Assembly (NCBI GenBank): GCA_964019415.1
Contig: OZ025878.1
Location: 1,471,001-1,535,000 of the forward strand
Source of the DNA: Ianthella basta
Taxonomy: Eukaryota > Porifera > Demospongiae > Verongiida > Ianthellidae
Direction of reading: 5' to 3'
DNA: 64,000 nt
Every line of letters starts with the position of its first letter. Position 1 is the stretch's first letter. This document shows, piece by piece, positions 3,024 to 63,943 of the stretch. Below the pieces are notes generated by a model. The model had not been told where the DNA came from and made no database searches. It was given only the letters and a program-made list of their open reading frames with translations. The position numbers were made by a program, and so were the translations under genes.

Positions 3024-4648
3024 GCTGTGGTTACTAACCAGCACACAAAGATGTGTATTCCTGGCAACATGGGCTCACAGCCCCATTCGCAGACAGGTGA
3101 GTGTGTGCTTATGAATAGCATATTGTATGCCACAAAATTTATAAGGAAGACACTTTTTCATGAATAAAAAGTTCTCAACTGCAAAAGTTGTGTTATGTGA
3201 AATTTAGCAGTAATGTATGTTATTCTAATACTCACTTTAACTACATAGGTATCTACATACTGTAGTGATAGTGCACTACCGAGTACTATCAAGAGTAGAT
3301 AGTGTACAACCTCGAATGCTCACCCGTAACAGCATTTTCTAAAATGATGCAGCAACACGTAACACGTGGCATGGTAATTCTGATGTAATGGATTAATACT
3401 ATTAACTTGATCCACCAGTCTGTATGTACTCAGCATCGATTGCACAGCTTTTTGGTTTGTTAATCGAGAGTTTCAACAATGTCCAGGACACCGCTGCAGC
3501 ACCCGCAAGGAAGGACCAGGACAGCAAACATGGATTTGGGTCACTCGAGAGCAGCGCTGCTAACCACAGCTCTACAGCTCTCCTGAGTGATCCAAATCCA
3601 AGCTTGCTGTCCTTGTCCTTCATCACGGGTACTGCAGGTGTGTCCCGAACATCGTTGAAACTCCTGACTAACAAACTAAAGAGCTATGCAATCGATGCCA
3701 AAATGTACAGAGCGGCAGATTGAGTTAACAGTATTCATCCATTACATCAGAATTTTAAATAGCGTTGCCATGCCCATGTGTGACGCATTGATACGTCATT
3801 TCAGAAAAATGCTGTTATACACACAGGGATACGCGGTTGCATACTCTCATCTCTTATCTACTCCTGGTAGTGTACACACAGACATTCATTGGGTTCCTTC
3901 TGTACTCTTTGCAGTTGCACCATTTTCAGTCACAGTATTTCTGGAGAAACATGAAGATGACTTTTTCAAATATGTCAACCCGAAGCAGAGCCTGCGGAGG
4001 CTCAAACGTAAAGGTGTCATCACAGAAGATGTCAAATCTAGCATAGAAAGGTCCAACACCGAAGATGCACTGGAGGATTTGTATGAGCACTTGAAGTTCC
4101 GTGGCAACCTGCACACACTGAAGGAGTTCTGTAAAATGGCCATAGATGCAGAAGGCCTTCCAAACATGCAGGTCCTTGGGAGGAAGATGATGGAGGAGTT
4201 GCCAACTGAGGTGGGTATTGTCTACCGAGAGTGTCAGGTTCATAGGCAGGCTCATTAATCTTGTAACCACATACAACCTGCCCACCAGCCATTTAATTGT
4301 GATGTCATGTGCAGACAGATCATTATACATATAAATGAAGGCGACGAAAGCTGTCTGGATACAAGACTAGGGGTTCATTGCATTTATATTAGTACAAACC
4401 CCCCTTCAGGATCTGTGGCATATAAAATTCAGTGCCTAACTGTTTTGTTGTAATCCAGGGCCAGCCTGTTTTAGTAAGGTGTCGCCACTCTGTTCCAATA
4501 TGCATGTACGCTATACATGACCATGTACACTACTTTCCCTATTGTTCTGACATCATTGGATGGATGGATGTAAATCTGACAGAATACCTTGCAACATTTC
4601 TTCAATGGTGTACCCCCATTTCAAAACCCTGCATAGGGCCTGAGTGTG

Positions 4649-11131: not shown

Positions 11132-12004
11132 ATGGCTTCTCGTCTCTTCGGCGCCGCCAGATATTTCCGTCCCAAACCTCCTTCCCTGGAGATTGGCAAG
11201 GAGCTTAATCGCGGTGCCTACGGCGCAGTGCATTCTGGGCGACTGGACGGAAAAGACGTGGCTGTGAAAAGAATCCATGGACTTCCTTTGGTGGCGGCGA
11301 GAGGACTTAGCGACTTAGACATGGTGCTCAATGACTTCCGTCACGAGTGCGATCTTCTCGAGCGACTGGACCACCCTCACGTGGTGGGGTTCAAGGGAGC
11401 CTTCTATGACGAGACGGCCGACGAGCCTATACTTGTAATGGAGCTGATGACGGAGAACCTGCGGCAATATCTGGAGCGGAACAGAGGTCAACTGAGCCGA
11501 CAGAGGCAGCTGGCGATTTGTATAGAGATCGTGCGCGGTCTCCGCTTCCTCCACACGCGTACTCCTCCTATTGTACACAGAGACCTCACGGACAAGAACA
11601 TTCTCTTAGCTGTCGATGGTGTGGTGAAGATCGGTGACCTCGGCCAGTCCAAGTTGAAGGTTAACGAGTACTTCAGCACTGCTATGCCGGGGGCTATCCC
11701 TTTCATGTCCCCTGAAGCCATGCAAGAACAGTCCCACTACAATGAGAAACTGGACATATTCTCCCTTGGTGTGCTCATGCTGGAAATAGCTACCCAGCAG
11801 CCTCCTCGTGTGGGTCTGGCTGGCATTGGTGTCACTTCAGAGTTGCAACGTCATGGAAAGGACCTTTCTGAACTGGATGAGGACCACCCTCTGCGGCTCC
11901 TGATCTTGTCCTGTTTGAGAGATGACCCAAATGAGAGACCAGATGTTGTGTCAGTTCACAGACAACTGTTGGCCATGGTGGAAGGAGTTGAGGTCAGTGC
12001 TTAG
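11132..12004 (+). CDS. TKL/RIP-like protein kinase exon, unit A
   Basis: It encodes a whole protein kinase domain in one exon, from ATG (AAAGATGGCT). Seen: glycine loop RGAYGAVHSG (27-36), VAVK with K46, helix-C E72, HRDLTDKN with catalytic D151 and N156, DLG (169-171) in place of DFG, and MSPEA (192-196) in place of APE. The catalytic Lys, Asp and Asn are present, so activity on Ser/Thr/Tyr substrates is likely. The style (HRDLTDKN, NILL) is that of metazoan TKL/RIP-like kinases expanded in sponges. The open frame ends at TAG 12002-12004, but GAG|GTCAGT at 11992/11993 is a good donor in phase 0, right after the domain. I think it splices on to 15055 and then the GTPase exon at 17770. As a stand-alone protein it would be 290 residues. 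Confidence 0.85.
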   Translation: MASRLFGAARYFRPKPPSLEIGKELNRGAYGAVHSGRLDGKDVAVKRIHGLPLVAARGLSDLDMVLNDFRHECDLLERLDHPHVVGFKGAFYDETADEPILVMELMTENLRQYLERNRGQLSRQRQLAICIEIVRGLRFLHTRTPPIVHRDLTDKNILLAVDGVVKIGDLGQSKLKVNEYFSTAMPGAIPFMSPEAMQEQSHYNEKLDIFSLGVLMLEIATQQPPRVGLAGIGVTSELQRHGKDLSELDEDHPLRLLILSCLRDDPNERPDVVSVHRQLLAMVEGVEVSA

Positions 12005-12916
12005 GCCATGTAAAATTGATTCACAGTTTATTGTCCAGTACATTTGTAAAGTGGATGAGGGTCATCTATAGCGCAGGGAGGTCATTTTTCATTATTCATC
12101 GTAAACATCTATAGCTATTGAAACACACCAAAACATACCAATACCTGGCGATCTAGATATATGCTCCAATTAGGAGCAGTCTGCGTGGTGTGGGTATGAT
12201 GAGTGTGCATGGCAGATGAGGATAGCATGCTTGCTAAATGGTGTTATTTTTGGCTCTGCATGGATAGGTAGAGTTTACCTGTAGCTGGTGATCTTAATAA
12301 TGAATAATGAAAGTTGGAAAGGCTGGGTAAAGAAGCATGTGGGCGGGGACGAAAATCTGCGAATCAAATTTGCCTGGCTTTATATGTATTAGTTATAATG
12401 CCCCCCAGGAGGGATGTGGCTGAGTGCTTACCATGCTATTAGCCACATCCCAAGTGGGGATGTTACTTGAGAGTGTGGTAGTACTCTCTACGTAGGGATG
12501 GCCTGAAAATTGCCACCATGCACCCCAATAGAATTGTACATGGGAACCAAATTCACCGAATCACCATCAAGCATCACCAAATTGTATTAAGATTGTATGG
12601 AGCCAGTAAGCAAGCACGTCCGGGCCGAGATTGATGATGGCCTGAACTTGCGCACAGTGTGCATGACAATTGAAGAAGTCAGGTTTTGTCTTCTTTCTTG
12701 TGCACGCATAACAGTACTGCGCATTGTTCAAATGCCAAACTAGAATGCTTCTCTGGGGCTATGTGCTATTGTAGGCACTGGAGTGCCATGAGTAACTTGC
12801 CTATAGATCCCGTTGCCATGGTAACGTGTGTCTGAACGATGTTTCTAAACGTCGTAGACACCCCGGATGCTGTTTCGCGCCGTGGTCTATTTCGTCTAGC
12901 CGTGTTCTAATTGGAA

Positions 12917-13080
12917 GCGCGGCGTTCGTGCCTATGTTCTAAATCGCGATTTAGAGCATGGGCATGGCACGCGCGGCGTTCGCGCCTATGCTCTAAATAG
13001 CGATTTAGAGCATGGGCGTGGCAGGCGCGGCGCGCGCGCCTATGGTCTAAATAGCGATTTAGAGCATAGGCGTGGCTTGG
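12917..13080. repeat. three-copy GC-rich minisatellite with inner palindromes
   Basis: Three copies of about 54 bases, each with GCGCGGCGTTCG..CCTATG followed by the palindrome CTCTAAATAGCGATTTAGAG and GGCGTGGCA. The copies differ by a few bases. Confidence 0.85.
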
Positions 13081-13519
13081 GCCCGTAGTCTATGGCAGAG
13101 AAACTGCAGCTGCAATAACAATAGTAGCTAACCCCACAACATACGATGCAAAGGTTGCCCGGCTTACTTGTTTCGTCGACAAACAGGGTAAAGCAACAAT
13201 CTGGCATGCAGCGGCCTACAAACCAGAGCCGAGAAAGAAACTGGTTACGAGCTGGGAACAGGCTTAGGACACCGCTCTGGGAAACGCTGTGGCTGACGGG
13301 GCCGACAGTGAGTAAGCTTACGTTTAGCTTATGCGCCGCATCCACTGCCGACCTTTAGGAACGTCTGATGCGAGATGACAAGCCCAATAACCAAACGACG
13401 TTTTCTTGGCCCTTGTCAGAAATTGCTAACTACTTCCGGAAGACGCGTGATGACGCAAGTACAAGTAGTTAAACTGATTCGCTGCCGCTCCTTGACCAAT
13501 CGTTGGGATCTATAACACT

Positions 13520-13631
13520 TAAATGCTGACCAATCGGTGTCTCTGAAGATTTAGACCACTCGGCACTCGGGTGCTTCGCGCCCTCGCACCTCGTGCTCTA
13601 AATCTCAGAGACACCTCTTGGTCAGCATTTA
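13520..13631. repeat. 112-bp hairpin
   Basis: The arms TAAATGCTGACCAA and TTGGTCAGCATTTA pair and continue through GTGTCTCTGA and GATTTAGA. The loop region is GC-rich (GGGTGCTTCGCGCCC). It is foldback DNA similar in design to the hairpin at 20418-20533. Confidence 0.85.
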
Positions 13632-14234
13632 ACTATTACTTAGACAATTTTTCTGCGCAACCCATTGGAGCCTCTAACGAATCTGCCATTTTGGTGATGT
13701 TAGTATAGTCATCTGTGTTTGTCATCGAGTCTGTCTTGTTGCCCCTCACATCTGGACAGATGTGAGGGGCGCTCAGATGTGACGGTATGCTGGCAAATTG
13801 TAATGTTCACCAAAATGCACTTTCACCTGCTCAAGTTTAGTGTTTCAACAAGGCATCATAGCATTCTTCCTATGTACTCCCAACAGACTAGTGTAGCAAC
13901 TTATTTCACATTGAAAAGTTACTAGATACATAATTCCCGCTAATGCATATGTGTATATACCCATACCATATGTAGTGAATTCCAATGGCATGCAACAATT
14001 GCTGAATATGCATGGTGTTTGAATGACTAGGTATGATACTGTGTTTTGTTGTTGTACGTATATGGTTACTTTAAGTTTCCTGTATCATTCCTTCTGGCTC
14101 ATTCATGTAGGAGTCCAAGGGAGGAGCCGTCTTGGGATTCCAGTCTGATACCCGTATGTTTGATTCCATTTGTTTATATACTGAGTATCATGGGTGTCAA
14201 AAGGGTGTTCTGTCAACTGACATGTGCCACATAC

Positions 14235-14882
14235 GTAGTTGAGACCCATAGGTAATAGGACTTCAGGCAAGGTTCCTTTCTCCCTGTTCAAGGTATTTTG
14301 GTTACGTTGTACCGTATACGCTTTAACTTTCGCAGAGTCAAACTTTTGTGGTTTTCGCGGATCAGCAACCATCCATGAAAGTTTTACCCCGCGAAAACTT
14401 ACACAAGGCTTTATTTCCTATTTCCCCTGCTTGAGATTCTGCAACCGCAAAAGTAAAAATGTGAGAACCGCCAAAACCTCGAACCATGAAAGTTTTACCC
14501 CGCGAAAGTTAAAGCGTATACATACAGTATATATGTACCAACTGTCTAATAGACAGTGTGTGGTGGTGTAAGGTTGGCAGTCAAAAACCTCTGACTTGGT
14601 GAGGTCCGCAGGATGACCTGTCGCAAGGGTGAGCTCAGCAAGGGCTTATGCGACCACATCTCCTTGCTTCAGTGCATGTCTGTGTTCCACCAGCCGATGA
14701 TCGAGGCTGTGGCCGGTTTGTCCGATGTACACTTTGGGGCATCCATATCTTTGAATGGCAAAGGACTTGAAAGAAAGGTGGTGCCATCTCATGAACACAA
14801 TCACTCTAAGCAAGTCTTGATTAAGGGCAAGGAAAGATAGTTGCAAGTGGATGTCATAGCTCAGTCTATAGAGTGTTGGCAT
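14235..14882 (-). pseudogene. Penelope-like element GIY-YIG endonuclease remnant, unit A
   Basis: The minus-strand reading contains CPKVYIGQTGHSLDHRLVEH (the GIY-YIG core with VYIG), then an in-frame TAA, then ALAELTLATGHPADLTKSEV and, past an inserted MITE, LNREKGTLPEV. This order matches the C-terminal endonuclease of Penelope-like retroelements, where the GIY-YIG motif is followed by an AEH..TGH motif and a LNRE-type ending. The reverse transcriptase part is absent. The plus-strand ORF at 14613-14840 is its shadow. It is a dead fragment. Confidence 0.7.
14315..14520. mobile_element. MITE inserted in the Penelope remnant, unit A
   Basis: The terminal inverted repeats TACGCTTTAACTTTCGC and GCGAAAGTTAAAGCGTA are flanked by TA. 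Subterminal GAAAGTTTTACCCCGCG repeats occur. It splits the Penelope-like reading frame between KSEVFDCQP and LNREKG. Confidence 0.8.
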
Positions 14883-15054
14883 CTTAAGCCAGATTGGGAT
14901 GGCTTCATTTACCTTGCCAAGTCAGTTACATGCAGCAGGCAATTGAGGAGGAGTACTATCAGTACAAATTAAACTATCTGACTAATGTACTATCAGTACA
15001 TTAATTATAAAATAAAAAAGTTTCTACAGTCAGCCAGACCCAACTGTATAACAG

Positions 15055-15112
15055 AAAGTGAAGATCAACTTAAAAGACACCAATCTCACCTTCTCCTTTG
15101 ATGTTAAGGAAG
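15055..15112 (+). CDS. 58-nt linker exon between kinase and GTPase, unit A
   Basis: It follows ATAACAG and ends at GGAAG|GTAGGT. It encodes KVKINLKDTNLTFSFDVKE plus one base. The entry phase (0) fits the kinase donor at 11992, and the single leftover base fits the two-base start of the GTPase exon at 17770, giving VKE-V-FTEWD. The B copy (34682-34739) has the same length, a synonymous GTG/GTT change and one Thr-to-Ala change, and stays open. Both facts support a real exon, though it is short. Confidence 0.55.
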
Positions 15113-15563
15113 GTAGGTATCTAGCAACTGTGGGCAGTGCATTATGTGCACTTTGCATCAAGATTTCCTAAAGTAAGATGTCTTCCTCTCTTCTTTGCAA
15201 GTTAATTGTGTGATCTGTTCTTCAGGTCCAACTTTCTTCAGATCAACTTGATACTGTTTCTTAAAACTAGCACACTGTGCTCTCTCCTAGAGTTGGAAAC
15301 TTGTTGGCAAAGTGCTTCACTACTGCTGCATTTCCACACTGGGCAACGTACTTGGTGATTATTTGCTCTAGCTTCTTCTGTAGAATGAGTATACTTTCGC
15401 TTTCTCTCACTAGCTCTGTTTCTCTCCTCCTCTATGATATTCATCACAGTGGCACTGTTAACTCCCTCGTGACAGCATCCAGTAGGTCAGCTTTGTTGCT
15501 TGTAGGTGAAGACGACTTCTTGAAAAACTTGAAGCAGAAGCACGTTCACTCACATTTATAGTA
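15113..15563. other. interval after the linker exon, unit A
   Basis: Nothing recognised. Small ORFs on both strands (15238-15561) are not preserved cleanly in B (34865-35218) and have no known domain. Confidence 0.3.
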
Positions 15564-15625
15564 CTAGCGGACATACCCACCCAAAGGACGGGTATGTCTG
15601 CGTGCTCAGCACGCGTCAGCTGGAT
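15564..15625 (-). mobile_element. Helitron 3' terminus, unit A
   Basis: Read on the minus strand, a GC-rich hairpin (GACATACCCGTCC, TTTG, GGTGGGTATGTC) is followed by CGCTAG and a host T. This is the Helitron 3' pattern: a hairpin just before CTRR, next to T. The 5' end (TC on the minus strand) to the right was not located. The sequence just right of the end resembles the element at 58306. Confidence 0.65.
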
Positions 15626-15829
15626 GTGACATAACATTTTTGTGGTGGAATGAAATGCTGTACTTTGTCAAGGCTTCAAGAGTAGTTAAGGATGGCAGGC
15701 TCCCAGCCTATCGCAAGCCAGCGAGTCGGTCCCTTGCAAGTTTTTAACTACCTGCACAGGTAGCAACGGAAGCTGGCTGCTATAACAACGATAGAGTTTA
15801 ATTCGAAAGTTTGCCGACAACGAATACCG

Positions 15830-16143
15830 TATAGCGGGAAACTTTTGCGAGATTTGATGTTTGATGATTCAACCAAATTCTCGAAATTTTCTTTTGCAAA
15901 TGTTCTCCACCCATCATTATAATTATATGCAAACGTCATAATAAGATGGCCACCACATAGTGCAGAAGTGGATTTTGCAATTTAAGTGCTATCTTACTGT
16001 TTCGTGCTTGAAAATTCCCTTCAACTAAGTAGTTTGCCTGCCAAGGAGTTGTTTTTAGGTTAGAAATTGCGAAATTAAAACCGCAAAATGTTTAGTTTGG
16101 AACAAAATCACAAAATTTTCTTCCGCAAAATTTTTTCACTATA
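15830..16143. mobile_element. MITE with TA flanks, unit A
   Basis: The ends TAGCGGGAAACTTTTGCG and GCAAAATTTTTTCACTA form imperfect terminal inverted repeats flanked by TA. The interior is rich in GCAAAA/TTTTGC motifs. The B copy is at 35855-36177. Confidence 0.65.
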
Positions 16144-16149
16144 CAGTAG

Positions 16150-17130
16150 GATCTCCCATAACCTGAAGTCCCTAATTAAAAATGGCATCTCGGCCCGCGG
16201 AAAACATGGAAATGCTTCCTTTGGCTGTAGAGCAGGTAGGTGACCGGCACCCCTCTAAGCTCATGTCCCCCCTAAACTGGCATGGCTTGTATCAAGTAGG
16301 CTAATGACCAGGTATGGAAGGGCCGGTCGATAATGTTAAAAATGGCGTGTTGGCCTGCAGAGAATTGACAAAGTTATCTTGCTCTTCGGCCGCAAGAAGC
16401 AGTGTGAACGGCACTCCTCTAAGAACAAGCCCCCCCCCCCCAGTCCCTCAACTGGCATGGGGCGTCTCGAGCTGATTCCTGGCAAGGCGCTGATTTAATG
16501 GCTGAACAAACATACATAAAAATCCGAGATCCAATGAATTATAGTAAGATTAATAAGACAGTCCTATTAATTCCCCCATTTACAGTATCCAGTAATTTAC
16601 CCAATTGCAACATGTATGTACATAGCCTACATCCACTTAATTGCTACCCCAAATCATGAGTAAAGCTTTGAAATTTATTTCTGCCTCCGTGTACAAGTTG
16701 CCACCATCTTCGCACTAATTAAGTGAAACTGTTCTTTAACTCATGAGGTGAGTTGATTATGTTGATTTGGTCTAGCTTGGTTTTGCAGTTTTGGTGTGAA
16801 CTTCCCAAAACAGTTTCTGACCACTTTGAAATCAGTTTGGAATGCCCATGTGAACACACCATAAGACAGTTACAAGTTTCATATGTTCCTCTTTACTTGC
16901 TATGCAGACAGCTATGAATAAAGTAACCATGTTACATGCTACCTTTGTAATATATAACGTATGGTCTTTCTGAAGCTCAGCCAGCGCGAAGGCTCAATTC
17001 GACTGCCAGGCAAGTAGCAGCTGACGCCATTTGCATTCCTTATTAAATGCCTAGGTAGATGTCACCCTAGCAGCCTAATCTGCGCATGCGCAGTAGATTC
17101 TGGCGCCAATTTTATGTCGCATTTGTGGTC
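16150..17130. repeat. degenerate tandem pair and unassigned DNA, unit A
   Basis: Two related blocks (about 16175-16305 and 16335-16480) share TTAAAAATGGC, a GGCACTCCTCTAAG-type motif, CCCCC runs and CAACTGGCATGG. The rest to 17130 has no gene that I can support. The B counterpart is 36180-37171. Confidence 0.55.
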
Positions 17131-17563
17131 TGTGATTGAACTGAACGAGCAGAAAACTCGGAGGCTCTCTCTCTCTCTCTTTCCTCAAGCGCTCGTCATC
17201 AGGGCGATTTCGGCTGTTCCATCAAAAGAAATAAGTCAATCGAAGGAACCCTACATTCCTGATAACACGCAGCGCTGAACTGATTGGGCAGTTAGCCTGA
17301 GGAATGGAAGGATTTCTACAATTCCAGACATAGTGAATCCGAGTTCCCACGTGATATTTTGCTGACAGAGGACAAGGAAGCGCTGTCACCGGCTTTGCAT
17401 TTTCGTAATGGAAGCAAGAAAGGCGAGTGGAGAGCCATACATGCCATGAAGGTTTGATCGATTTATCTCTACTGATGGAACAGCTTGAAATCACTCTGAT
17501 GACAAGCGCTTGAGAGAGAGAAAGAGCCTCCGAGTTTCTGCTCTTTCTGTTCCATCAATCACT
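17131..17563. mobile_element. foldback element near the GTPase exon, unit A
   Basis: The arms GCAGAAAACTCGGAGGCTCT and AGAGCCTCCGAGTTTCTGC, with CTCAAGCGCTCGTCATCA against TGATGACAAGCGCTTGAG, form long imperfect inverted repeats around a centre near 17345. B has a shorter version at 37172-37488 that lost about 60 bases of the middle. Confidence 0.8.
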
Positions 17564-17769
17564 GTATGTTGCATAGTGACATACCAGGTATGATATGATA
17601 ATGAACCTCATTTTGGAGTTATCATGGCATATAACATACTTTTTAGCCCTATCCTTTACTACGTGATTGCACAATCACCATACGATATGTACAAATAATT
17701 ATTACTTTATGACATTCTCCCAACTCTTTAGATGTCAATGATGTAGTGCTGTTTCTCATCTATTTGCAG

Positions 17770-20093
17770 TATTCACTGAATGGGATTGCACTCAGCTGTA
17801 CTACAAAGCAGTCACTGAAAGCCCCACAATCAATCTCCATGTTGCCAAGGCAATGACCATTGGCCCTCCTCGAGTAGGGAAGACCACCCTTCGCCACCTC
17901 CTACTGGATCTGCAACCACCAGAGGTTATTGCCAGTACACCTCTGATGAAGACAGCAGAAACTGTTAGTATTGTCTCATCAGAATATCTGAAGGAGGTGG
18001 AAGATACTGCAACGTGCAGTAGACTAAGTGGGGAAATGGCGCAGACAGTTCATCTGGGGAAGCATTCTGTCGAGTCAGATATGGTCCACGTAGGCTCAGT
18101 TAAGAGTGAAAAGATCCCATGGTTGATTGTGAGTGAAGCCAGTGGAATACAGAGTTTGCTTAGGTTCCTGCAGCAGCATGCTGAAAGAGCAGCTACACAG
18201 GTGAAGCCCACCAAGGAAGTGCGAGAGACAGCAACTACAGATGCTGTGCCTTCACCCTCACATGAATCAAAAAAAAGTGATAAAGTGACGGTAGCCTTTG
18301 TTGAAGACACTGACGGTACACCTGCTCACCAAGAGCAGCAAGGCAGCAAGCCACGAGATCTCCCAGATGTAGCTGCTACCATTAGCAAAATTTATCGGTT
18401 ACTCCAAAGAGCTCATATCACTGACGTTAAACTCCCCGATTGCAGTCTCCTGCAATTTTTGGACTGCGGGGGACAGCTGGCTTACCACGATATCCTCCCA
18501 CTCTTTACCACTATTCCAGCAGTGTACTTGCATGTGTTCAACCTGAACGAAGACTTGCAGAATCGCCCATTTGACCAAATTCGTTTTACTGAAGTTGGTG
18601 GTGAGGTGTGTACAACTGCAAGGTCTCCTCTTACAGTTGCTGAAATGATGTCCCGTTCAGTAATGACAGTCAATTCTCTGATTGATAAGAACATGCAACT
18701 GCCTAAGAGTGTCCTGCAGAGCGAGCCGCCGGAGCCTCGTGTTGTGCTGGTGGGCACTCACCTTGACAGGCTGGCTACAAGGTGCAAAGGAGCCATTGAA
18801 CCAGAGTTGGACTCTGTAAACATGGCACTGAATAAAGCTTTAGATTCACCATCACTACGTCTGAAGCAAATGCTTTTGAGGAATCAGGAGCCAGTTCTTC
18901 CTGCAATGTTTTTCCCCATTGGTCTCCTTGACCCCACACAAGGCAAGGAGAGTAAGAGTTCAGAGATCACTAGACGCTCAATCAGTAAGCTCAAGCAGAA
19001 GATTGAGAAGCTAGTGAGTGCTGTCAAAGTGAAGGTTCCCGTTAAATGGTACCTCCATCAGATGCTGGAAGTCAGCCGCAGCAAGGAGGAGCGCAAGCCA
19101 GTGCACATGTACAGCGATCTGTTTCAGTCTTGCCTCCGTGAGCAGGCTGTGGGTGACTTGGGAGAGTTTCATGTCATGGTCACCTACTTCCATGCCCTGG
19201 GTCTCCTCATTCACCTATGTGGGGAGGATGTGCCGCACAGTGAGAGGAGTACCTGCTTGGTTTTCACTGACCCATCCTACCTGTTTGAAAATATTACCAA
19301 GCTGTACCAGGCCCAATTTTTGGAAGAGGATCGCTGTGAGGGCTGCTTACAGCCCCTCAGGTGTCAAGGCAAGCTCACAAAGAAAGCTCTTCGAGCTCTC
19401 AATGTTGACAATACTTTCATTTCTGATGATGACTTCATGAACCTTCTGGTTCAGCTCTACATTGGAGCAGATATCACAGAGAAGGAACATGATGGTGAGA
19501 AACAAGGCAGGGTACTTTTTATACCATCCGTGATCCCAATCAGTGATGCGGCAAGTGAGCGCACTGTTTTATCCAGGCCTTCCTGCCAATACTTCATCAT
19601 CACCTTTGAGGGCAAATTCTTCATTCCTTGCGGTGTGTTCACAGGGACAATTGCACGCCTGCAATCTGAGCCATGTTGGAATTTGCTCTACAAATCTGTA
19701 AGTCGTCTTCATGCCAAGTTTACAATTGGAGCCCGTGATACCGTTTACGTGATCGATAACAGCACGCACATCAAGGTTGTAGCAGATGTCCATAGCCAGT
19801 GCAATGCAGAAGAATACCGTGACTTTGTCATAGACTCTGTAGCCCAATCATACTGCTTCTTGTTCCATGGCACGCATACAAAGAGTTCACACTGTGGAGT
19901 CTGCCAGAAGAAGCCATTCCTGGTTCTTGGGCTGCTGTGCCACTGTACTGCCTGTGAAGACAAAGGTGCCACAAGTATTGCAAGACTCCATACTGATGAC
20001 GGCATTCCTCAGACTGTACGTTGCCAACTGTCAGGTGAAGTAGAAGAACTAGATGGCAGTCGGTCATCACTGTTTTGGAATAATACGTACCAT
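17770..20093 (+). CDS. Roc-COR (Roco)-like GTPase exon, unit A
   Basis: A single exon of about 2.3 kb after TATTTGCAG, read from two leading bases as FTEWDCTQLYY; the first ATG is 17853. Numbering from that Met: P-loop GPPRVGKT (4-11), LDCGGQ (203-208) as the switch II/Walker B element with Gln, and VGTHLD (about 300-305) in place of NKxD. Then a COR-like region with VKWYLHQML, FHVMVTYFHALGLLIHLCG and VFTDPSYLFENI, and a C-terminal domain with FIPCGVFTGTIARL and a Cys-rich HCGVCQKKP...CHCTAC segment. Roco proteins are cytosolic GTPases that dimerise through COR. The exon ends in phase 0 at CAT|GTAAGT (20093). The kinase and linker exons upstream have fitting phases, so this may be the second half of a kinase-GTPase fusion. 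The 751-residue ORF to the intronic TAA is the minimum product. Confidence 0.8.
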
Positions 20094-20417
20094 GTAAGTA
20101 CTCACTAATGCAAAATGTAATCATATTTTATGTGCAGAAAACTCTGTACTGCAAACATTCCTCCTTATACTTGAGGGATATTTGCAAATACATAATGTGG
20201 TATAGTTAACCACAGAGATGCATTCATCAAAATAGCTGTCGTAGGAAAACTAATTCAAATGCCAAGTTGCTAGTCACTGTAATCAGTGCAAAGTCAAGGT
20301 CCCTAAGAGCTGCACAACACATTCATTTCCTTTGTGGTGAGTAAGAAGAACGTATGGGGTGCCGTTTGGGTAAAACCTCCATATGAAAATGGGATGTATA
20401 CATTATATATGTATTAG

Positions 20418-20533
20418 TTATAACACCTCCTTGAGGGATGTCGCTGATTTATAAGCACGAGGCCCGAGGGCACGAAGCGCCCGAGGGGGGGGTGCTTATA
20501 AATCAGCGACATCCCGAAAAGGAGGTGTTATAA
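20418..20533. repeat. 116-bp hairpin inside the nested insert, unit A
   Basis: The left arm TTATAACACCTCC...GGGATGTCGCTGATTTATAA pairs with TTATAAATCAGCGACATCCC...GGAGGTGTTATAA. The loop carries GAGGCCCGAGGGCACGAAGC. The insert seems to begin at or near this hairpin. Confidence 0.9.
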
Positions 20534-21279
20534 GTGATTTATTTGCCGAACAAAGGAAAGCGTGGGCGAATGTTAATTGGTTTCTTGCCAAATAAGGAAA
20601 GCATTAGGGGAGCGCAGGCGAATCCAAAGCGTTTTTATTCATTACTACAGCTAGCTAGCGAACAGCCAAGCGAGTCAGGCAGAAACGTCAGTACGCTACA
20701 CCTCCGGAAACCTCTTGCCCCGCTCCTGCAACGTGATCGAAGGCACCAACAAGACTTGGCTGGTGAATTGTGGTCGGCGGAATGTGCGCCCGACGGAATT
20801 GGAGGCGGAGGGAGCCAAGCTGGCTCAGAGAAATCTGATGGTGGGACAGCACGATGGATCGGTGATCAGCTGCGTCGAAACTCACCGTGATCTGAGACTC
20901 TATGTTCGTTCGGTAGCTAGCTAGCTACGTAGCTACGTACTTGAGATGTCTTTCCGACCGGGTCCTCTCGTGCGGAAGAATCGGCCACGCATCGACGCAC
21001 AAATTTCGTCGAATCGACAGCTGTAGTACGGTAGAACGGCAGTAACCAGCTTGCTCAGTGCTTCCAATAGGATGAAGCTTAAGATTTTTGTGCCCTTTTC
21101 CATGACTGAAACTACAGTGGCACCATAGATTTTCAAAACCCAACCATATTAATGGTTGGGTATAGTGTAGAGTTACTGTATGCTTCATTGAACTGTTCTT
21201 GTGTTTTGATCTGAATGCATGCACTTGCATGTGAAGTGTTGTTGCTATTGATTGAATCACAGTGAACCCGATTAGATAT

Positions 21280-21370
21280 TTTCGTGAACCCAATTAGATA
21301 TTCTTGCTCTCCAATAAGATATAATCGCTCTCCTATAAGATATAATCGCTCTCCAATATGATATAATCGC
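21280..21370. repeat. short AGATATAATCGCTCTCC tandem repeat
   Basis: Four to five degenerate copies of a unit of about 24 bases (AGATATAATCGCTCTCCAAT), near the right end of the nested insert. Confidence 0.75.
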
Positions 21371-21591
21371 TGTCTGATGACAAATTGTCACCTCTCACTG
21401 CAAGTAGCACTTTTATAGTCACTCAATAAACATAGCAACCACCTAGCAACGGCAAATAACTGGATATAATATCCGGATATTTGATATACGTACATCCACA
21501 AATTTATACATCCCATTTTCATGCAGAGTTTTTGCCCAAACAGCACCCCATAAGTATGGAAGAAACCACAGCAGAGCCAACAGCAGCACAG

Positions 21592-21944
21592 GCTAGCTCA
21601 ACAAGTGTATTGCATCATGTTTGGATTGAGGATGTTGAAGTAATGTCCCTCAAAATTTAAATGCATAATTATATATCTGTATATGTGTGTGTTAAAATTT
21701 GGGACATTCTTATGTGAATTTCATAAGTACGTAGCTGATGTTTGCTAAATTATCAATGTAATAATGTCCAGCATCTAATTGCATATAAAAACATTTCCTG
21801 GTACAGCAGATTATCAAGGGTTTCTTTGACACTGTGGACTCTTTATCTTGGAATTCTCGCCATCTATCCAGTGTTCAAGTACACAAGAAGTCAGATAAGG
21901 CTTTGGATATTGTTAAAATTATAACGACAGAAAGAGGGAGATAA
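21592..21944 (+). CDS. probable C-terminal exons of the GTPase gene, unit A
   Basis: Exon 21592-21639 (after CAGCACAG, ending GAA|GTAATG) reads ASSTSVLHHVWIEDVE. Exon 21807-21944 (after GGTACAG) reads QIIKGFFDTVDSLSW and on to TAA, 45 residues. Both are phase 0, matching the GTPase donor at 20093. In B the first exon has one extra base (GTTTGGGATCG) and the second has ATTTGTTAA in place of ATTGTTAA, so both are broken there, along with the GTPase. No domain recognised. The exons are short, so this is tentative. Confidence 0.4.
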
Positions 21945-22412
21945 GCACTAGAAACTTTTGTACTGTATGTGCTAGGGACGATGCTAGTGCTGTTCTGAAT
22001 AATGGTGCTTACCCTTGAGATAGGCTGATCAGGAAATCACTGTATTTGAGTGTAGAAGACAGGGATTCATTGGCAATTACGATACATTTGAATCTTTGAA
22101 TCTGTGGTTGATGATTTTTTGAATGACGCATTTTTGATGAGTATGATATACTTCTGTTCAATCTGTTATACATCTTGCCACTGAAGATTGCCACCTCTAT
22201 AGCTTGTGGCCCAATTATGTGCATTCATGCCTTTTAAGGTATGAATTTGGACAATGCCGTATGCTATGAAGAGATGGGCTATGTGCTCAACCAAGAGTAT
22301 GTAAAAGATCAAATGTGCAATCATATATCCTAACCATGGAAAGTATTGTTCAAAAATGACTTTGTAACACATCACATGTACGTGAGCACGGTAACACTAT
22401 TAAGATCATACT

Positions 22413-22748
22413 ATGCAATCTTCACGTGTTTTGCCCTGGCGACTTACCCCGTGGAAGTTGCAGCTGATGCAGAGTACCATAAATCTGCTAAAAACTCATG
22501 AACTTTTTAGATTTTCAATTAGAGATCTTTCAAAATTGGAGATGCTCTTGGTGCCATTTCTGGAAGGTTCCATGAGTAAAATGGCCACCACTGGCACTTC
22601 CCTCATCGCCGTGTGGTGCAATATTCCCAGGAATCATGTCTACAATGAGGTTTGGAGCCCTCAGTATTACAGAGGATTTTGTATGGGTCACCAAGGAAAT
22701 GAACTTCCAGGACAGGAAAGCTGTAGCTGTCACCTGCACTACTTGTAG
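22413..22748 (+). other. conserved ORF at the end of unit A
   Basis: An open frame of 111 codons just upstream of the A/B junction; its 3' two-thirds are also open in B (41212-41613, LEMLLVPFLEGSMSKMATTG onward). No domain recognised, no clear splice sites. The minus strand is also open over the same stretch. It may be a fossil exon or chance. Confidence 0.25.
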
Positions 22749-23333
22749 CGACTAGCCAGTAGGCTAATCTCAACGCATTGGACATCTCCGAAGGCTACAC
22801 TGCTTTGTTAGGTGTGCATACCATTGTTAGGTACCATTTCACAAGGTGTATCATGCAGCACCCCAGAAAATGTTGCCAAAAAATAGAGGTCTACAGAAAT
22901 TTTAGAGTCACCCAAGGATTTGAAATTTTAGAACGTTTCAAGGCAAGACTGGAAAGTTTGCGAAAGTTAAAATTTTGATTTTGGAAGATTCACAGCATGT
23001 GTGCTTCAGTGTGGAAACAGTGCTGAGAGGCTGCCTTATGTGTAAGGATGTGTACAATAAGAAAGCACTATTGGTGAGAGCTCCTGTGTCAAACTGAGCA
23101 AGGTAACAATCAAAATGTGTTTGTGGTGGCAGTGCTGAATAATGGGAACATCGTATGCCATGTCTCGCTGAAGATTTCTGCTGCCTGTGTAAGACTATTG
23201 CTTCAAATCACTATTTGGCGAAACAAACACGAAGTAGTGTGGAGTCTTGACCAGCTACTTGCTTGCCCTGAATTTTGGTCTGAGAGTTTGCCTTAATTCC
23301 AAGCCTGAATGCTGTACTCCTTGATGGCGAAGC

Positions 23334-23546
23334 TTACTTCATACATGAACCGATGGATAGCTGCTGTGTTGTCATGCAGTGGTGCAATCTGGACAATTTT
23401 AGCTGCTCGCTTGCAACCTTAATGTGCATTCCTATAGCAGGCATTGAGGAAGTGTCAACTTTGCGCACCTTGGTGTTCACATCCCAAATGGTAGCAGTCC
23501 TGATGGTGGTGGACAACGGGCCCTTCGGTAGTGGGAGTGCATCCAC
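23334..23546 (-). other. conserved minus-strand ORF near unit starts
   Basis: The reading LPKGPLSTTIRTATIWDVNT is open on the minus strand here, at 2614-2823 (A) and at 42204-42416 (C). The plus strand is also open. It may be a fragment of an old transposon protein. I cannot name it. Confidence 0.25.
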
Positions 23547-23865
23547 CGGCTTGAATCAGCAATGCACTGAGTCCTACATATACATAGCTAAAACATTGAA
23601 TATAAAAATTGGCGAATTTTCTTGAGTTGAGGCTGGCTCGCGAAAGTGCTCACGAAAATTTCCCACTGTGCAGTATTATGTTCATAAGCATATTACTGCG
23701 CCTAAGTGTGATTCATTACTGTATCATTGTGAAAAAATGCTGTTCCATGGGTGTAATGCGTACATGGTCACACACTCTTATCTCATATTTTACTCTTGTT
23801 GTAAAGCAATGCTTGCATATCATTTTGCATTCACTCATTGCATCCTTTTATGTTTGATGTCACAG

Positions 23866-26413
<2,548 letters not shown>

Positions 26414-31615: not shown

Positions 31616-32491
31616 ATGGCTTCTCGTCTCTTCGGCGCCGCCAGATATTTCCGTCCCAAACCTCCTTCCCTGGAGATTGGCAAGGAGCTTAATCGCGGTG
31701 CCTACGGCGCAGTGCATTCTGGGCGACTGGACGGAAAAGACGTGGCTGTGAAAAGAATCCATGGACTTCTTTTGGAGGCGGCGAGAGGACAGGGCAACTT
31801 TGACATGATGCTCAATAACTTCCGTCGCGAGTGCGATCTTCTCGAGCGACTGGACCACCCTCACGTGGTGGGGTTCAAGGGAGCCTTCTATGACGAGACG
31901 GCCGACGAGCCTATACTTGTAATGGAGCTGATGACGGAGAACCTGCGGCAATATCTGCAGCGGAACAGAGGTCAACTGAGCCGACAGAGGCAGCTGGCGA
32001 TTTGTATTGAGATCGTGCGCGGTCTCCGCTTCCTCCACACGCGCACTCCTCCTATTGTGCACAGAGACCTCACGGACAAGAACATTCTCTTAGCTGTCGA
32101 TGGTGTGGTGAAGATCGGTGACCTCGGCCAGTCCAGGTTAAAAGGTCCTGAAGAGTACTTCAGCTCTGCTCAGCCAGGGCTGATCCCTTTCATGCCCCCT
32201 GAAGCCATGCGAGAACAGTCCCGCTACAATGAGAAACTGGACATATTCTCCCTTGGTGTACTCATGCTGGAGGTAGCCACCCAGCAGCCCCCTCGTGTAA
32301 GTCTGGTTGGTATTGGCACAGTTACACAGTCGCAGCGTCGTAGAGAGGACCTCTCCAAGCTGGATGAGGACCACCCTCTGCTGCTCCTGATCTTGTCCTG
32401 TTTGAGAGATAACCCAAAGGAGAGACCAGATGTTGTGTCAGTTCACAGACAACTGTTGGCCATGGTGGAAGGAGTTGAGGTCAGTGCTTAG
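31616..32491 (+). CDS. TKL/RIP-like protein kinase exon, unit B
   Basis: Ortholog-by-duplication of the unit A kinase; 291 residues to the TAG, or 288 codons to the donor GAG|GTCAGT at 32479/32480. The glycine loop, VAVK, HRDLTDKN and DLG are kept. The activation-segment end reads MPPEA where A has MSPEA. Changes against A cluster in the loop after VAVK (LLLEAARGQGNF), the activation segment (LKGPEEYFSSAQPG) and residues around 240-260; the rest is nearly the same. The frame is open. Unlike A, its probable downstream GTPase exon is frameshifted. Confidence 0.85.
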   Translation: MASRLFGAARYFRPKPPSLEIGKELNRGAYGAVHSGRLDGKDVAVKRIHGLLLEAARGQGNFDMMLNNFRRECDLLERLDHPHVVGFKGAFYDETADEPILVMELMTENLRQYLQRNRGQLSRQRQLAICIEIVRGLRFLHTRTPPIVHRDLTDKNILLAVDGVVKIGDLGQSRLKGPEEYFSSAQPGLIPFMPPEAMREQSRYNEKLDIFSLGVLMLEVATQQPPRVSLVGIGTVTQSQRRREDLSKLDEDHPLLLLILSCLRDNPKERPDVVSVHRQLLAMVEGVEVSA

Positions 32492-34681: not shown

Positions 34682-34739
34682 AAAGTTAAGATCAACTTAA
34701 AAGACGCCAATCTCACCTTCTCCTTTGATGTTAAGGAAG
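34682..34739 (+). CDS. 58-nt linker exon, unit B
   Basis: Same splice borders and length as the unit A exon, encoding KVKINLKDANLTFSFDVKE. It sits between the B kinase and the B GTPase pseudogene. The sequence just upstream (about 34650) is shorter than in A by about 50 bases. Confidence 0.5.
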
Positions 34740-37695: not shown

Positions 37696-40010
37696 TATTC
37701 ACTGAATGGGGTTGCTCTCAGCTGTACTACAAAGCCGTCACTGAAAGCCCCACAATCATCCTCCATGTTGCCAAGGCAATGACCATTGGCCCTCCTCGAG
37801 TAGGGAAGACCACCCTTCGCCACCTCCTACTGGATCTGCAACCACCAGAGGTTATTGCCAGTACACCTCTGATGAAGACAGCAGAAACTGTTAGTATTGT
37901 CTCATCAGAATATCTGAAGGAGGTGGAAGATACTGCAACGTGCAGTAGACTAAGTGGTGAAATGGCGCAGACAGTTCATCTGGGGAAGCATTCTGTCGAG
38001 TCAGATATGGTCCAAGTAGGCTCAGTTAACAGTGCAAAGATCCCATGGTTGATTGTGAGTGAAGCCAGTGGAATACAGAGTTTGCTTAGGTACCTGCAAC
38101 AGTGTGCTGAACAAGCAGCTACACAGGTGAAGCCCACCAAGGAAGTGCGAGAGACAGCAACCACAGATGCTGTGCCTTCACCCTCACATGAATCAAAGGA
38201 AAGTGATAAAGTGACGGTAGCCTTTGTTGAAGACACTGACGGTACACCTGCTCACCAAGAGCAGCAAGGCAGCAAGCCACAGGACCACCCAGATGTAGCT
38301 GCTATCATTAGCAGAATTTATCGGTTACTCCAAAGAGCTCATATCACTGACGTTAAACTCCCCGATTGCAGTCTCCTGCAATTTTTGGACTGCGGGGGAC
38401 AGCTGGCTTACCACGATATCCTCCCACTCTTCACCACTATTCCAGCAGTGTATTTGCATGTGTTCAACCTGAATGAAGACTTGCAGAATTGCCCATATGA
38501 CCAAATTCGTTTTAATGATATTAGTGGTGAAGTGTGTACAACTGCAAAGTCTCCTCTTACAGTTGCTGAAATGATGTTCCGGTCAGTAATAACAGTCAAT
38601 TCTCTGATTGATAAGAACATGCAACTGCCAAAGAGTGTCCTGCAGAGCGAGCCGCCGGAGCCTCGTGTTGTGCTGGTGGGCACTCACCTTGACAGTTTGG
38701 CTAAGATGTGTGAAGGAGCCCTTAAACCAGAGTTGGACTCTGTAAGCATGGCACTGAATAAAGCTTTAGATTCACCATCACTATGTCTGAAGCAAATGCT
38801 TTTGAGGAATCAGGAACCAGTTCTTCCTGCAATGTTTTTCCCTGTTGGTCGCCTTTCCCCCACACAAGGCAAGGAGAATATGAGTTCACAGATCACTAGA
38901 CGCTCAATCATTAAGCTGAAGCAGAAGATTGAGAAGCTAGTGAGTGCCGTCAAAGTGAAGGTTCCCGTTAAATGGTACCTCCATCAGATGCTGGAAGTCA
39001 GCCGCAGCAAGGAGGAGCGCAAGCCAGTGCACATGTACAGTGATCTGTTTCAGTCTTGCCTCCGTGAGCAGGCAGTGGGTGACTTGGGAGAGTTTCATGT
39101 CATGGTCACCTACTTTCATGCCCTGGGTCTTCTCATCCACCTATGTGGGGAGGATGTGCCTCACAGTGAGAGTAGTACCTGCTTGGTTTTCACTGACCCA
39201 TCCTACCTGTTTGAAAATATCACCAAGCTGTACCAGGCCCAGTTTTTGGAAGAAGATCGCTGTGAGGGCTGCTTACAGCCCCTCAGGTGTCAAGGCAAGC
39301 TCACAAAGAAAGCTCTTCGAGCTCTCAATGTCGACAGTACTTTTCTTTCTGATGATGACTTCATGAACCTTCTGGTTCAGCTCTACATTGGAGCAGATAT
39401 CACAGAGAAGGAACATGATGGTGAGAAACAAGGCAGGGTACTTTTTATACCATCCGTGATCCCAATCAGTGATGTGGCAAGTCAGTGCAATGATTTATCC
39501 AGGTCTTCCTCATCATCACCTTTGAGGGCAAATTCTTCATTCCTTGCGGAGTGTTCACAGGGACAATCGCACGCCTGCAATCTGAGCCACATTGGAATTT
39601 GCTCTACAAATCTGTAAGTCGTCTTCATGCCAAGTTTACAATTGGAGCCCGTGATACTGTTTATGTCATCGATAACAGCACGCACATCAAAGTTGTAGCA
39701 GATATCCACAACCAGTGCAACGCAGAAGAATACCGTGACTTTGTCATAGATTCTGTAGCCCAATCATACTGCTTCTTGTTCCATGGCACACGTACAAAGA
39801 GCCCTCACTGTGGAGTCTGCCGGAAGAAGCCCTTCCTGGTTCTTGGGCTGCTTTGCCGCTGTGCTGCCTGTAAAGACAAAGGAGCCACAAGTATTGCAAG
39901 TCTCCATACTGATGACGGCATTCCCCAGACTGTACGTTGCCAACTGTCAGGTAAAGCAGAAGAACTGGATGGCAGTCGGTCATCACTGTTTTGGAATATT
40001 AAGCACCCTG
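37696..40010 (+). pseudogene. Roc-COR-like GTPase exon, unit B, frameshifted
   Basis: It aligns with unit A from the 3' splice site (AG at 37694-37695) to CCT|GTGAGT at 40010. At 39510/39511 ten bases found in A (GCCAATACTT) are missing, so the frame breaks about 577 codons after the ATG at 37779. The original frame resumes in another register and stays open from 39551 to 40024. P-loop GPPRVGKT, LDCGGQ and VGTHLD are all intact. The truncated product (612 residues with a foreign tail) would keep the GTPase and COR-like parts and lose the Cys-rich C terminus. The downstream sequence is still well conserved, so the break looks recent. Confidence 0.8.
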
Positions 40011-42759: not shown

Positions 42760-44412
42760 GCTGTGGTTGCTAACCAGCACACAAAGATGTGTATTCCTGC
42801 CAACATGGGCTCACAGCCCCATTCGCAGACAGGTGAGTGTGTGCTTATGAATAGCCTATGCAGTAAAATTTATGAGGTAAAATTTATAAGGAAGACACTT
42901 TTTCATAAATAAAAGTCTTCAACTGCAGAAGTTGTGCTATGTGAAATTTAGCAGTAATGTATGTTATGCTAATACACGCTTTTACTACATACGTATCTAC
43001 ATACTGTAGTGATAAGTGCACTACCAAGTACTATCAAGAGTAGATAAGAGATGAGAGTGTGCAACCTCATATGCTCACTCGTAACATTTTTTTAAATAAT
43101 GCAGCAACACATCACACGTGGCATGGTAACGCAACTTAATATTCTGATGTAATGGATTAATACTATTAACTTGATCCACCAGTGTGTACGTACTCAGCAT
43201 CGATTGCACAGCTTTTTGGTTTGTTAATCGAGAGTTTCAACAATGTCCAGGACACCGCTGCAGCACCCGCAAGGAAGGACCAGGACAGCAAACATGGATT
43301 TGGGTCACTCGAGAGCAGCGCTGCTAACCACAGCTCTACAGCTCTCCTGAGTGATCCAAATCCAAGCTTGCTGTCCTTGTCCTTCATCACGGGTACTGCA
43401 GGTGTGTCCCGAACATTGTTGAAACTCCTGACTAACAAACTAAAGAGCTATGCAATCGATGCCAAAATGTACAGAGCGGCAGATTGAGTTAACAGTATTC
43501 ATCCATTACATCAGAATTTTAAATAGCGTTGCCATGCCCATGTGTGACGCATTGATACGTCATTTCAGAAAAATGCTGTTATACACACAGGGATATGCGG
43601 TTGCATACTCTCATCTCTTATCTACTCCTGGTAGTGTACACACAGACATTCATTGGGTTCCTTCTGTACTCTTTGCAGTTGCACCATTTTCAGTCACAGT
43701 ATTTCTGGAGAAACATGAAGATGACTTTTTCAAATATGTCAACCCGAAGCAGAGCCTGCGGAGGCTCAAACGTAAAGGTGTCATCACAGAAGATGTCAAG
43801 TCTAGCATAGAAAGGTCCAACACCGAAGATGCACTGGAGGATTTGTATGAGCACTTGAAGTTCCGTGGCAACCTGCACACACTGAAGGAGTTCTGTAAAA
43901 TGGCCATAGATGCAGAAGGCCTTCCAAACATGCAGGTCCTTGGGAGGAAGATGATGGAGGAGTTGCCAACTGAGGTGGGTATTGTCTACCGAGAGTGTCA
44001 GGTTCATAGGCAGGCTCATTAATCTTGTAACCACATACAACCTGCCCACCAGCCATTTAATTGTGATGTCATGTGCAGACAGATCATTATACATATAAAT
44101 GAAGGCGACGAAAGCTGTCTGGATACAAGACTAGGGGTTCATTGCATTTATATTAGTACAAACCCCCCTTCAGGATCTGTGGCATATAAAATTCAGTGCC
44201 TAACTGTTTTGTTGTAATCCAGGGCCAGCCTGTTTTAGTAAGGTGTTGTCACTCTGTTCCAATATGCATGTACAGTATACATGACCATGTACACTACTTT
44301 CCCTATTGTTCTGACATCATTGGATGGATGGATGTAAATCTGACAGAATACCTTGCAACATTTCTTCAATGGTGTACCCCCATTTCAAAACCCTGCATAG
44401 GGCCTGAGTGTG

Positions 44413-61586: not shown

Positions 61587-61661
61587 TCTGAGATAGTAGC
61601 ATTCCCCTTGTCTGGGGCTGACTGTGTATACCCGACCAATTGCTTGGGCTTCAAAGATGCC

Positions 61662-63500: not shown

Positions 63501-63943
63501 TTGGAAGTGGCATTAGACTGCCAATTAAGTGACACACCTGCCCTTGCACACGAAATGACGGGTTCCATCCTGGCACTGCTGCCTCTGTGCATCCAAAGCC
63601 TGCAGTGAGGAGCAATTAGTATAGATGAAGAATGGATGCCTGCTGAATTGTAAGTAGTTATCAGTAGATAGAAAATGCATTGCATATTTAACTCACTTGT
63701 CATCTGGAATGCACAGTTGTACTTGCGAGTATTTTCCAGAAAATGTTTGGAGTGAGGATGATATCTGTCATATAGTTGCTGGAGGTAGTCAGGAGGCTGA
63801 GGAAAGTGCTGCAGACAAACCTGTCCATTGGCACAGCACATAGATGCAGACTCTCCACGAAATCTGACTGCACCGCAAGCACAGACATGCTGCATCTCCC
63901 CTAGGCATGTTTCTGTTAAAAACGTTTCAGGATCGTACTGCAA
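63394..63943 (-). pseudogene. Helitron Rep-helicase, N-terminal exons
   Basis: The first exon (minus, to about 63695) has CACGAVRF, then CCANGQVCL, PQPPDYLQQLYD and FLENTRKYNCAFQMT: the Cys-rich, PPP..L, N.R.YN.AF pattern of Helitron N-termini. It ends ACAA|GTGAGT. The second exon begins after CTCACTGCAG with CTTTGGATGC; joined, it reads MTS-FGCTEAAVPGW and on to FRVQGQVCHLIGSLMP and FLQVYFID, again as in the family. Near 63446-63452 a run of seven T (A on the coding strand) marks a one-base frameshift; the continuing frame is 63500-62244. The gene continues past the right edge. Confidence 0.75.

Follow-up and report, generated by a model that had tools for sequence, protein, structure and literature searches.

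A stretch of 64,000 nucleotides from the sponge Ianthella basta (contig OZ025878.1, positions 1,471,001 to 1,535,000; the contig is called C11 and the whole 64-kb stretch the window) carries exons for a protein kinase, a Roc-COR GTPase and a CARD in that order. Judged from its sequence, the segment from window position 11132 to 25125 is probably a single five-exon gene, tandemly repeated, which would encode a protein of about 1218 amino acids running from a TKL-like kinase to a CARD (probability about 0.67). The genome searches reported here covered 209 Mb in 96 contigs. The exons of the gene model are the following.

11132..11992, plus strand: exon 1, TKL-like protein kinase domain (287 amino acids) with its ATG; ends GAG/GTCAGT in phase 0
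15055..15112, plus strand: putative exon 2, a 58-nucleotide linker, KVKINLKDTNLTFSFDVKE; phase 0 in, phase 1 out; cag/AAA...GAAG/GTAGGT
17770..20093, plus strand: exon 3, Roc-COR GTPase (774 amino acids); acceptor cag/TATTC..., donor CAT/GTAAGT in phase 0
23866..23938, plus strand: exon 4, AVVANQHTKMCIPANMGSQPHSQT; 73 nucleotides, phase 0 in, phase 1 out
24785..25125, plus strand: exon 5, CARD and stop codon TAA (25123-25125); acceptor in phase 1

Joined, the five exons form 3657 nucleotides and a single frame of 1218 codons in which the only stop is the terminal one. The predicted protein consists of the kinase, a 19-residue linker, Roc-COR, the 24-residue product of exon 4 and the CARD. The preliminary description of this DNA had proposed a phase-0 kinase donor at 11992 (GAG/GTCAGT), a 58-nucleotide exon at 15055 that enters in phase 0 and leaves one base, and a GTPase exon at 17770 that supplies the two bases completing the split codon. 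All of these borders were recovered, and the in-frame TAG at 12002-12004 lies beyond the donor. The domains, their order and phases, the open joined frame and the tandem copies stand in the DNA itself, and we infer the splice from kinase to GTPase. This joining is favoured because the phases fit and the linker is free of insertions and deletions (indels) in four loci, and because in neighbouring units the same GTPase follows another kinase and another candidate linker, in a frame that also reads through. On the sequence, a kinase-first fusion is the best reading of the two exons.

Exon 1 matches the Pfam kinase domain with an E value of 5.7e-41 and carries the motifs VAVK, HRD and, at the DFG position, DLG. 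NCBIfam returned only general kinase models, all under their cut-off, and no match to the GTPase. In 29 of 30 kinase loci compared by eye, a GT donor lies at the end of this exon or within three codons of it; the other locus (L023) reads GCGAGT. Scored hit lists were drawn up for 136 of 907 kinase candidates, 58 of 261 GTPase candidates and 150 of 592 CARD candidates. The kinase exon, with its 136 scored hits in the genome, appears to be a 5' module that has been shuffled.

The linker has four copies in the genome, all within this region of C11. None of the six copy pairs differs by an indel within the exon, where 2 to 8 of the 58 positions are substituted, and the flanks are rich in indels; this contrast reaches a Fisher p of about 0.01 in two pairs and not in the other four. 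One copy has 4 extra nucleotides at the donor, where GT is still present. The candidate exon is thus supported by its indel-free conservation in four loci, not by its splice signals. No convincing match to it was found in the unit at C11:1230 kb, in the C6 locus or in eight other GTPase loci. The introns that border it measure 3.1 kb on the kinase side and 2.7 kb on the GTPase side. The intron on the kinase side also contains, at window positions 12900-13090, repeated palindromic units of the GCTCTAAAT.GCGATTTAGAGC type, which are perhaps a small mobile element.

The third exon encodes a Roc-COR GTPase in which COR directly follows Roc, as motifs, Pfam matches in paralogues and fold matches all indicate, and the identity given in the preliminary description holds. 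The motifs GPPRVGKT, DCGGQLAYHD and VGTHLD (G1, G3 and G4) are conserved and define a Ras-like Roc domain. Of 14 family members, 11 match Pfam Roc at E <= 0.1, with a best value of 5.5e-4; the window GTPase itself reaches an E value of 0.05, under the curated cut-off. COR-A is matched at E <= 0.1 in 5 of the 14 (best 5.1e-6), and the window protein is not among them. A genome search for COR-A gave 24 matches that do not include the window GTPase, though they include a family member on C3. Alignment of the family with the LRRK-type Rocos of this genome by hhalign gave an E value of 0.003 over COR-A, with a probability of only 10.5%. The AlphaFold model of the GTPase is poor, with a predicted local distance difference test score (pLDDT) of 44.5, and it served for fold matches alone; with this low-confidence model, Foldseek returned nine matches at E <= 0.001, all of them to Roco proteins (best 1.7e-7). 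A PDB search with the single sequence gave no match, and the PDB profile search reached the Roc domain of LRRK2 only at E 0.03, behind the unrelated EttA at 0.018. The exon has no credible start codon of its own, as its first ATG adjoins the P-loop and conservation extends to the residues upstream of this ATG.

The preliminary description ended the gene with two short exons at 21592 and 21807 that gave a cysteine-rich tail. The domain order up to COR is retained here as the best reading, and the tail is better explained by exon 4 and the CARD exon. The exon at 21592 was rejected, since its AG acceptor is absent from both copies compared, unit 2 and the paralogue at C11:1230 kb. The exon at 21807 keeps its acceptor in three copies (unit 1, unit 2 and the C11:1230-kb paralogue), with a frame open for at least 36 codons. 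Its dN (nonsynonymous divergence) of 0.158 is close to its dS (synonymous divergence) of 0.144 between unit 1 and the C11:1230-kb paralogue, which indicates no constraint on a protein, so it is either a chance open frame or an alternative end.

21807..21944, plus strand: candidate for an alternative 3' end; acceptor present in all three copies

A scan for 3' exons that enter in phase 0, leave in phase 1 and are kept in the same three copies gave four candidates, two of which are 23866-23938 and its shorter form. The splice sites and phase of exon 4 are preserved in all three copies. It was accepted chiefly because the GTPase paralogue on C6, which is 45% identical to the window GTPase, has a counterpart (AVVKEQHTSY...) in the same place and in the same phases; the joined frame of GTPase, exon 4 and CARD is open there as well. 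Exon 5 encodes a six-helix CARD fold with a kinked first helix, modelled by AlphaFold at pLDDT 89, and the RIP2 CARD is among its structural matches. A PDB profile search with this CARD returned no CARD and one chance match. The domain is missing from the preliminary description. At least 18 of the 58 scored GTPase hits are followed on their own strand, within 8 kb, by a CARD hit; in each of the three other arrangements, upstream or on the opposite strand, the count is 0 of 58. This count is a lower bound because both lists hold scored candidates only, and the pairing exceeds chance.

The gene model belongs to a series of three tandem units of about 20 kb each at window positions 2085-49856, which the preliminary description does not mention; most aligned blocks of these units, including those in introns, show 82 to 98% identity. 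The second unit repeats the five exons, of which the Roc-COR exon is probably broken, to judge from a short deletion in its sequence.

31616..32479, plus strand: unit 2 kinase exon, 88% identical to exon 1
34682..34739, plus strand: unit 2 linker exon
37696..40009, plus strand: unit 2 Roc-COR exon, frame shifted relative to unit 1 by a short deletion near 39500
42760..42832, plus strand: unit 2 exon 4
43679..44022, plus strand: unit 2 CARD exon

Every pair tested gave a dN/dS ratio under 1 for all three domains. The ratio is 0.14 to 0.45 for the CARD, 0.31 to 0.52 for the GTPase, and 0.64 (unit 1 against unit 2) and 0.45 for the kinase.

Sister loci on C11 bear most directly on the joining of kinase and GTPase. 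The GTPase of the unit at C11:1230 kb is 89% identical to that of the window. This unit carries another kinase (46-48% identical to that of the window), a 37-nucleotide candidate linker of the same phases, the GTPase, exon 4 and CARD, which together form one open frame of 1184 amino acids. The 37-nucleotide linker is plausible and is present without indels in L042 and L043. Three GTPase loci of C11 other than that of the gene model (L039, L042 and L043) were compared with the window, and they match it contiguously only from a point just ahead of the GTPase exon.

17701, no strand: homology breakpoint, 69 nucleotides 5' of the GTPase exon

Two of these three loci carry a different kinase in front, which is 47% identical to the window kinase. 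At L043 no kinase was found within 8.5 kb upstream, though its intron blocks are shared with L039 and L042. Because the sister GTPases match only from 17701 onward and the fronts differ, the window gene seems to be a chimera made inside a phase-1 intron. The front half has a relative of its own at C11:1308204-1328900 (L018, L048 and L070), called the C11:1308-kb locus. Its kinase is 78% identical to that of the window and, together with two intron blocks, aligns with the window in the same order. The linker lies 13.7 kb past the kinase, and the reading covered this locus apart from about 12 kb between kinase and linker. After the linker follows a CARD-like exon (33% identical) in the right phase, with no detectable GTPase, and the kinase-linker-CARD frame is open over the stretch taken.

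Scored kinases lie within 8 kb upstream on the same strand for five of the nine scored GTPases on C11. When kinase positions along the C11 cluster were rotated, a count of five was reached in 116 of 10,000 trials, a figure for which tandem copies are not independent. Over the whole genome, 5 of the 136 scored kinase hits are followed on the same strand, within 8 kb, by one of the 58 scored GTPases, and two of these lie inside the window. A search for the order of kinase then Roc-COR, which the preliminary description had proposed, thus yielded further loci within this C11 cluster only, among scored hits.

Several observations weigh against a single gene from kinase to CARD. Close relatives of the kinase precede Kelch exons elsewhere (L045 on C8 and L046 on C18), and a second kinase type at C11:228 kb (L057) precedes NHL exons; by eye, the acceptors of these Kelch and NHL exons appear to be in phase 0. 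Since Kelch or NHL exons follow such kinases, the phase-0 donor of the kinase exon is by itself no evidence for a GTPase partner. The kinase dN/dS of 0.64 between units 1 and 2 is a sign of weak constraint. Splice signals alone do not single out the linker, as the same intron holds two forward and three reverse-complement candidates, and at two loci no GTPase was detectable behind the linker. A loose scan at C11:1230 kb gave 24 candidates, the 37-nucleotide linker among them, and a stricter one over the same stretch gave none. For four of the nine scored GTPases on C11, the 8 kb upstream contain no scored kinase, and none was found ahead of L043, L044 (within 7.8 kb) and L049 to L056 (about 4 kb each). 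At the 3' end, exon 4 lacks dN/dS constraint (dN 0.117 above dS 0.063, with one synonymous and six other changes), and the exon at 21807 is a possible alternative terminus.

Some of these points would suit two neighbouring genes present in each tandem unit. The kinase gene would terminate either in a short 3' exon of its own or at the TAG at 12002, and the Roc-COR-CARD gene would start from an undetected 5' exon. The pairing of kinase relatives with Kelch or NHL and the length of the two introns speak for this arrangement, as do the open reading frames (ORFs) found upstream of GTPase paralogues elsewhere. These encode ankyrin (L049, C7), a death domain (L041, C6), SPRY (L052, C12) and three CARDs (L050, C3). 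Pfam domains were identified in four of seven such ORFs and not in two at L053 and one at L054; these ORFs may or may not belong to the same genes as the GTPases. No Kelch or NHL exon was found behind the window kinase when two Kelch sequences and one NHL sequence were run against the window by tblastn. The linker, moreover, requires an exon before it that ends in phase 0, as the kinase exon does; the GTPase lacks a start codon of its own, and two different kinases, each with a phase-compatible linker, stand ahead of this GTPase. Two separate genes are considered unlikely.

Alternative splicing would let the locus make both a RIPK2-like kinase-linker-CARD protein and a kinase-Roco-CARD protein. 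The phases permit it: the linker leaves in phase 1, the GTPase enters in phase 1, exon 4 leaves in phase 1 and the CARD exon enters in phase 1, so GTPase and exon 4 together form a phase 1-1 cassette that could be skipped or included. The two loci without a detectable GTPase also keep linker and CARD exon in phase. However, the GTPase may simply have been deleted there, and about 9.3 kb separate the end of the kinase from the linker at C11:1344 kb. Such dual output is regarded as rather improbable. It is very unlikely that the units are arrays in decay, whose stray exons for kinase and GTPase yield nothing functional. The frameshifted GTPase of unit 2, the mobile elements after the left part of the third unit and the kinase dN/dS of unit 1 against unit 2 would fit such decay, but all five exons of unit 1 and all five at C11:1230 kb are open, and the dN/dS ratios below 1 for all three domains also argue against it.

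If the kinase-to-CARD gene is real, it may have arisen by exon shuffling inside a phase-1 intron. A kinase-linker front, of the type seen in the kinase-linker-CARD locus 174 kb away, would have been joined to a Roc-COR-CARD back that has a different kinase in its own front, so that one kinase front replaced another. Copies of the resulting protein would be gathered by CARD contacts with other CARD proteins, which would include Roco-CARD paralogues that have an ankyrin, SPRY or death-fold front. The nucleotide state of Roc-COR may set dimerization and access to the kinase, and the kinase would relay an immune or death signal, like RIPK2 but with a built-in Roco switch. All biochemistry of the proposed protein is inferred. 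Roc-COR control of pairing and kinase access is proposed by analogy with DAPK1, in which GTP binding to Roc is reported to inhibit the kinase in the accessible text of PMC6337361. The gene model contains no leucine-rich repeat (LRR), ankyrin or SPRY sensor, and such ORFs precede sister GTPases, which suggests a division into sensors and kinase effectors. A wider proposal is that recombination in a phase-1 intron replaced the kinase ahead of one Roc-COR-CARD core, and that the animal thereby makes several kinase-Roco-CARD signalling proteins. These would serve as built-in effectors for those Roco-CARD proteins that act as sensors through an ankyrin, SPRY or death-fold front. This would be a second, independent origin of kinase-first Rocos apart from DAPK1; it is offered tentatively, at somewhat less than even odds.

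The preliminary description held that known Roco kinases carry the kinase after COR, and in this it overlooked DAPK1. The accessible text of PMC6337361 calls DAPK1 the only Roco group with a kinase ahead of RocCOR and classes that kinase as calmodulin-dependent; in DAPK1, as in the window gene model, the kinase comes ahead of Roc-COR and the C-terminus is formed by a death-fold domain. The window kinase differs and does not fit the CAMK type: its best PDB relatives are CTR1, WNK and TNNI3K, and no DAPK appears among the best 60 of its 95 PDB matches. DAPK1 has ankyrin repeats between kinase and Roc, whereas the window gene model has a 19-residue linker and no ankyrin there, and it ends in a CARD instead of a death domain. 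RIPK2 has an N-terminal kinase and a C-terminal CARD and is not known to have a Roc-COR or other folded domain. The window gene model, in contrast, has the 774-residue Roc-COR exon between the two, and the closer counterpart of RIPK2 would be the kinase-linker-CARD locus at C11:1308 kb. The LRRK-type Roco genes on C20 of the same genome (L001-L006) have a COR domain, found in the genome search, and after it a kinase-like domain recognized by eye. Unlike these and the Rocos of Dictyostelium, the window model continues after the GTPase with the 24-residue exon and the CARD, not with a kinase.

Trichoplax has at least 17 putative ROCO genes, and some combine Roc-COR with CARD or death domains; in the accessible text of that report (PMC4104024), no kinase is named among the accompanying domains. 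In brown algae, Roco families were diversified by phase-matched exons and are proposed to be immune receptors (PMC11378527, accessible text). There, LRR exons shuffle within LRR-Roc-COR, whereas here kinase, ankyrin, SPRY and death fold lie upstream of the GTPase. A survey of myotubularins also covers LRR/ROCO/kinase proteins (PMC2927912, accessible text). Death-fold and kinase families are expanded in the present genome, and such expansions are on record for Amphimedon too (PMC8195603, accessible text). Kinase-first Rocos (DAPK1), Rocos with CARD (Trichoplax) and exon-shuffled Rocos (brown algae) are thus already known. The combination of kinase, Roc-COR and CARD was not met in titles or abstract openings of the best-ranked open-licence papers, which is no proof of its absence. 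What is apparently new here is a gene model with a TKL-like kinase, Roc-COR and CARD together, which seems to have been built by exon shuffling.

The remaining features of the window lie outside the gene model. The unit that precedes it contributes a CARD exon, with no GTPase hit of that unit in the window, and the third unit has no kinase hit inside the window. A reverse transcriptase of the long interspersed nuclear element (LINE) type and a Helitron lie beyond the left part of the third unit. GC skew is strong (0.55) on the plus strand at window positions 56001-58000.

3915..4258, plus strand: CARD exon of the preceding unit
50781-52250 and 60269-63512, minus strand: LINE-type reverse transcriptase ORF; Helitron Rep-like and PIF1-like helicase ORFs

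If the fusion of kinase and GTPase is true, it would provide a second kinase-first Roco layout beside DAPK1, and its CARD would tie a Roc-COR switch directly to CARD signalling. Control of a kinase by Roc-COR is usually studied in LRRK2, where the kinase sits after it. Two different kinases ahead of one GTPase core would allow this control to be compared, in a natural setting, for kinases that precede Roc-COR.

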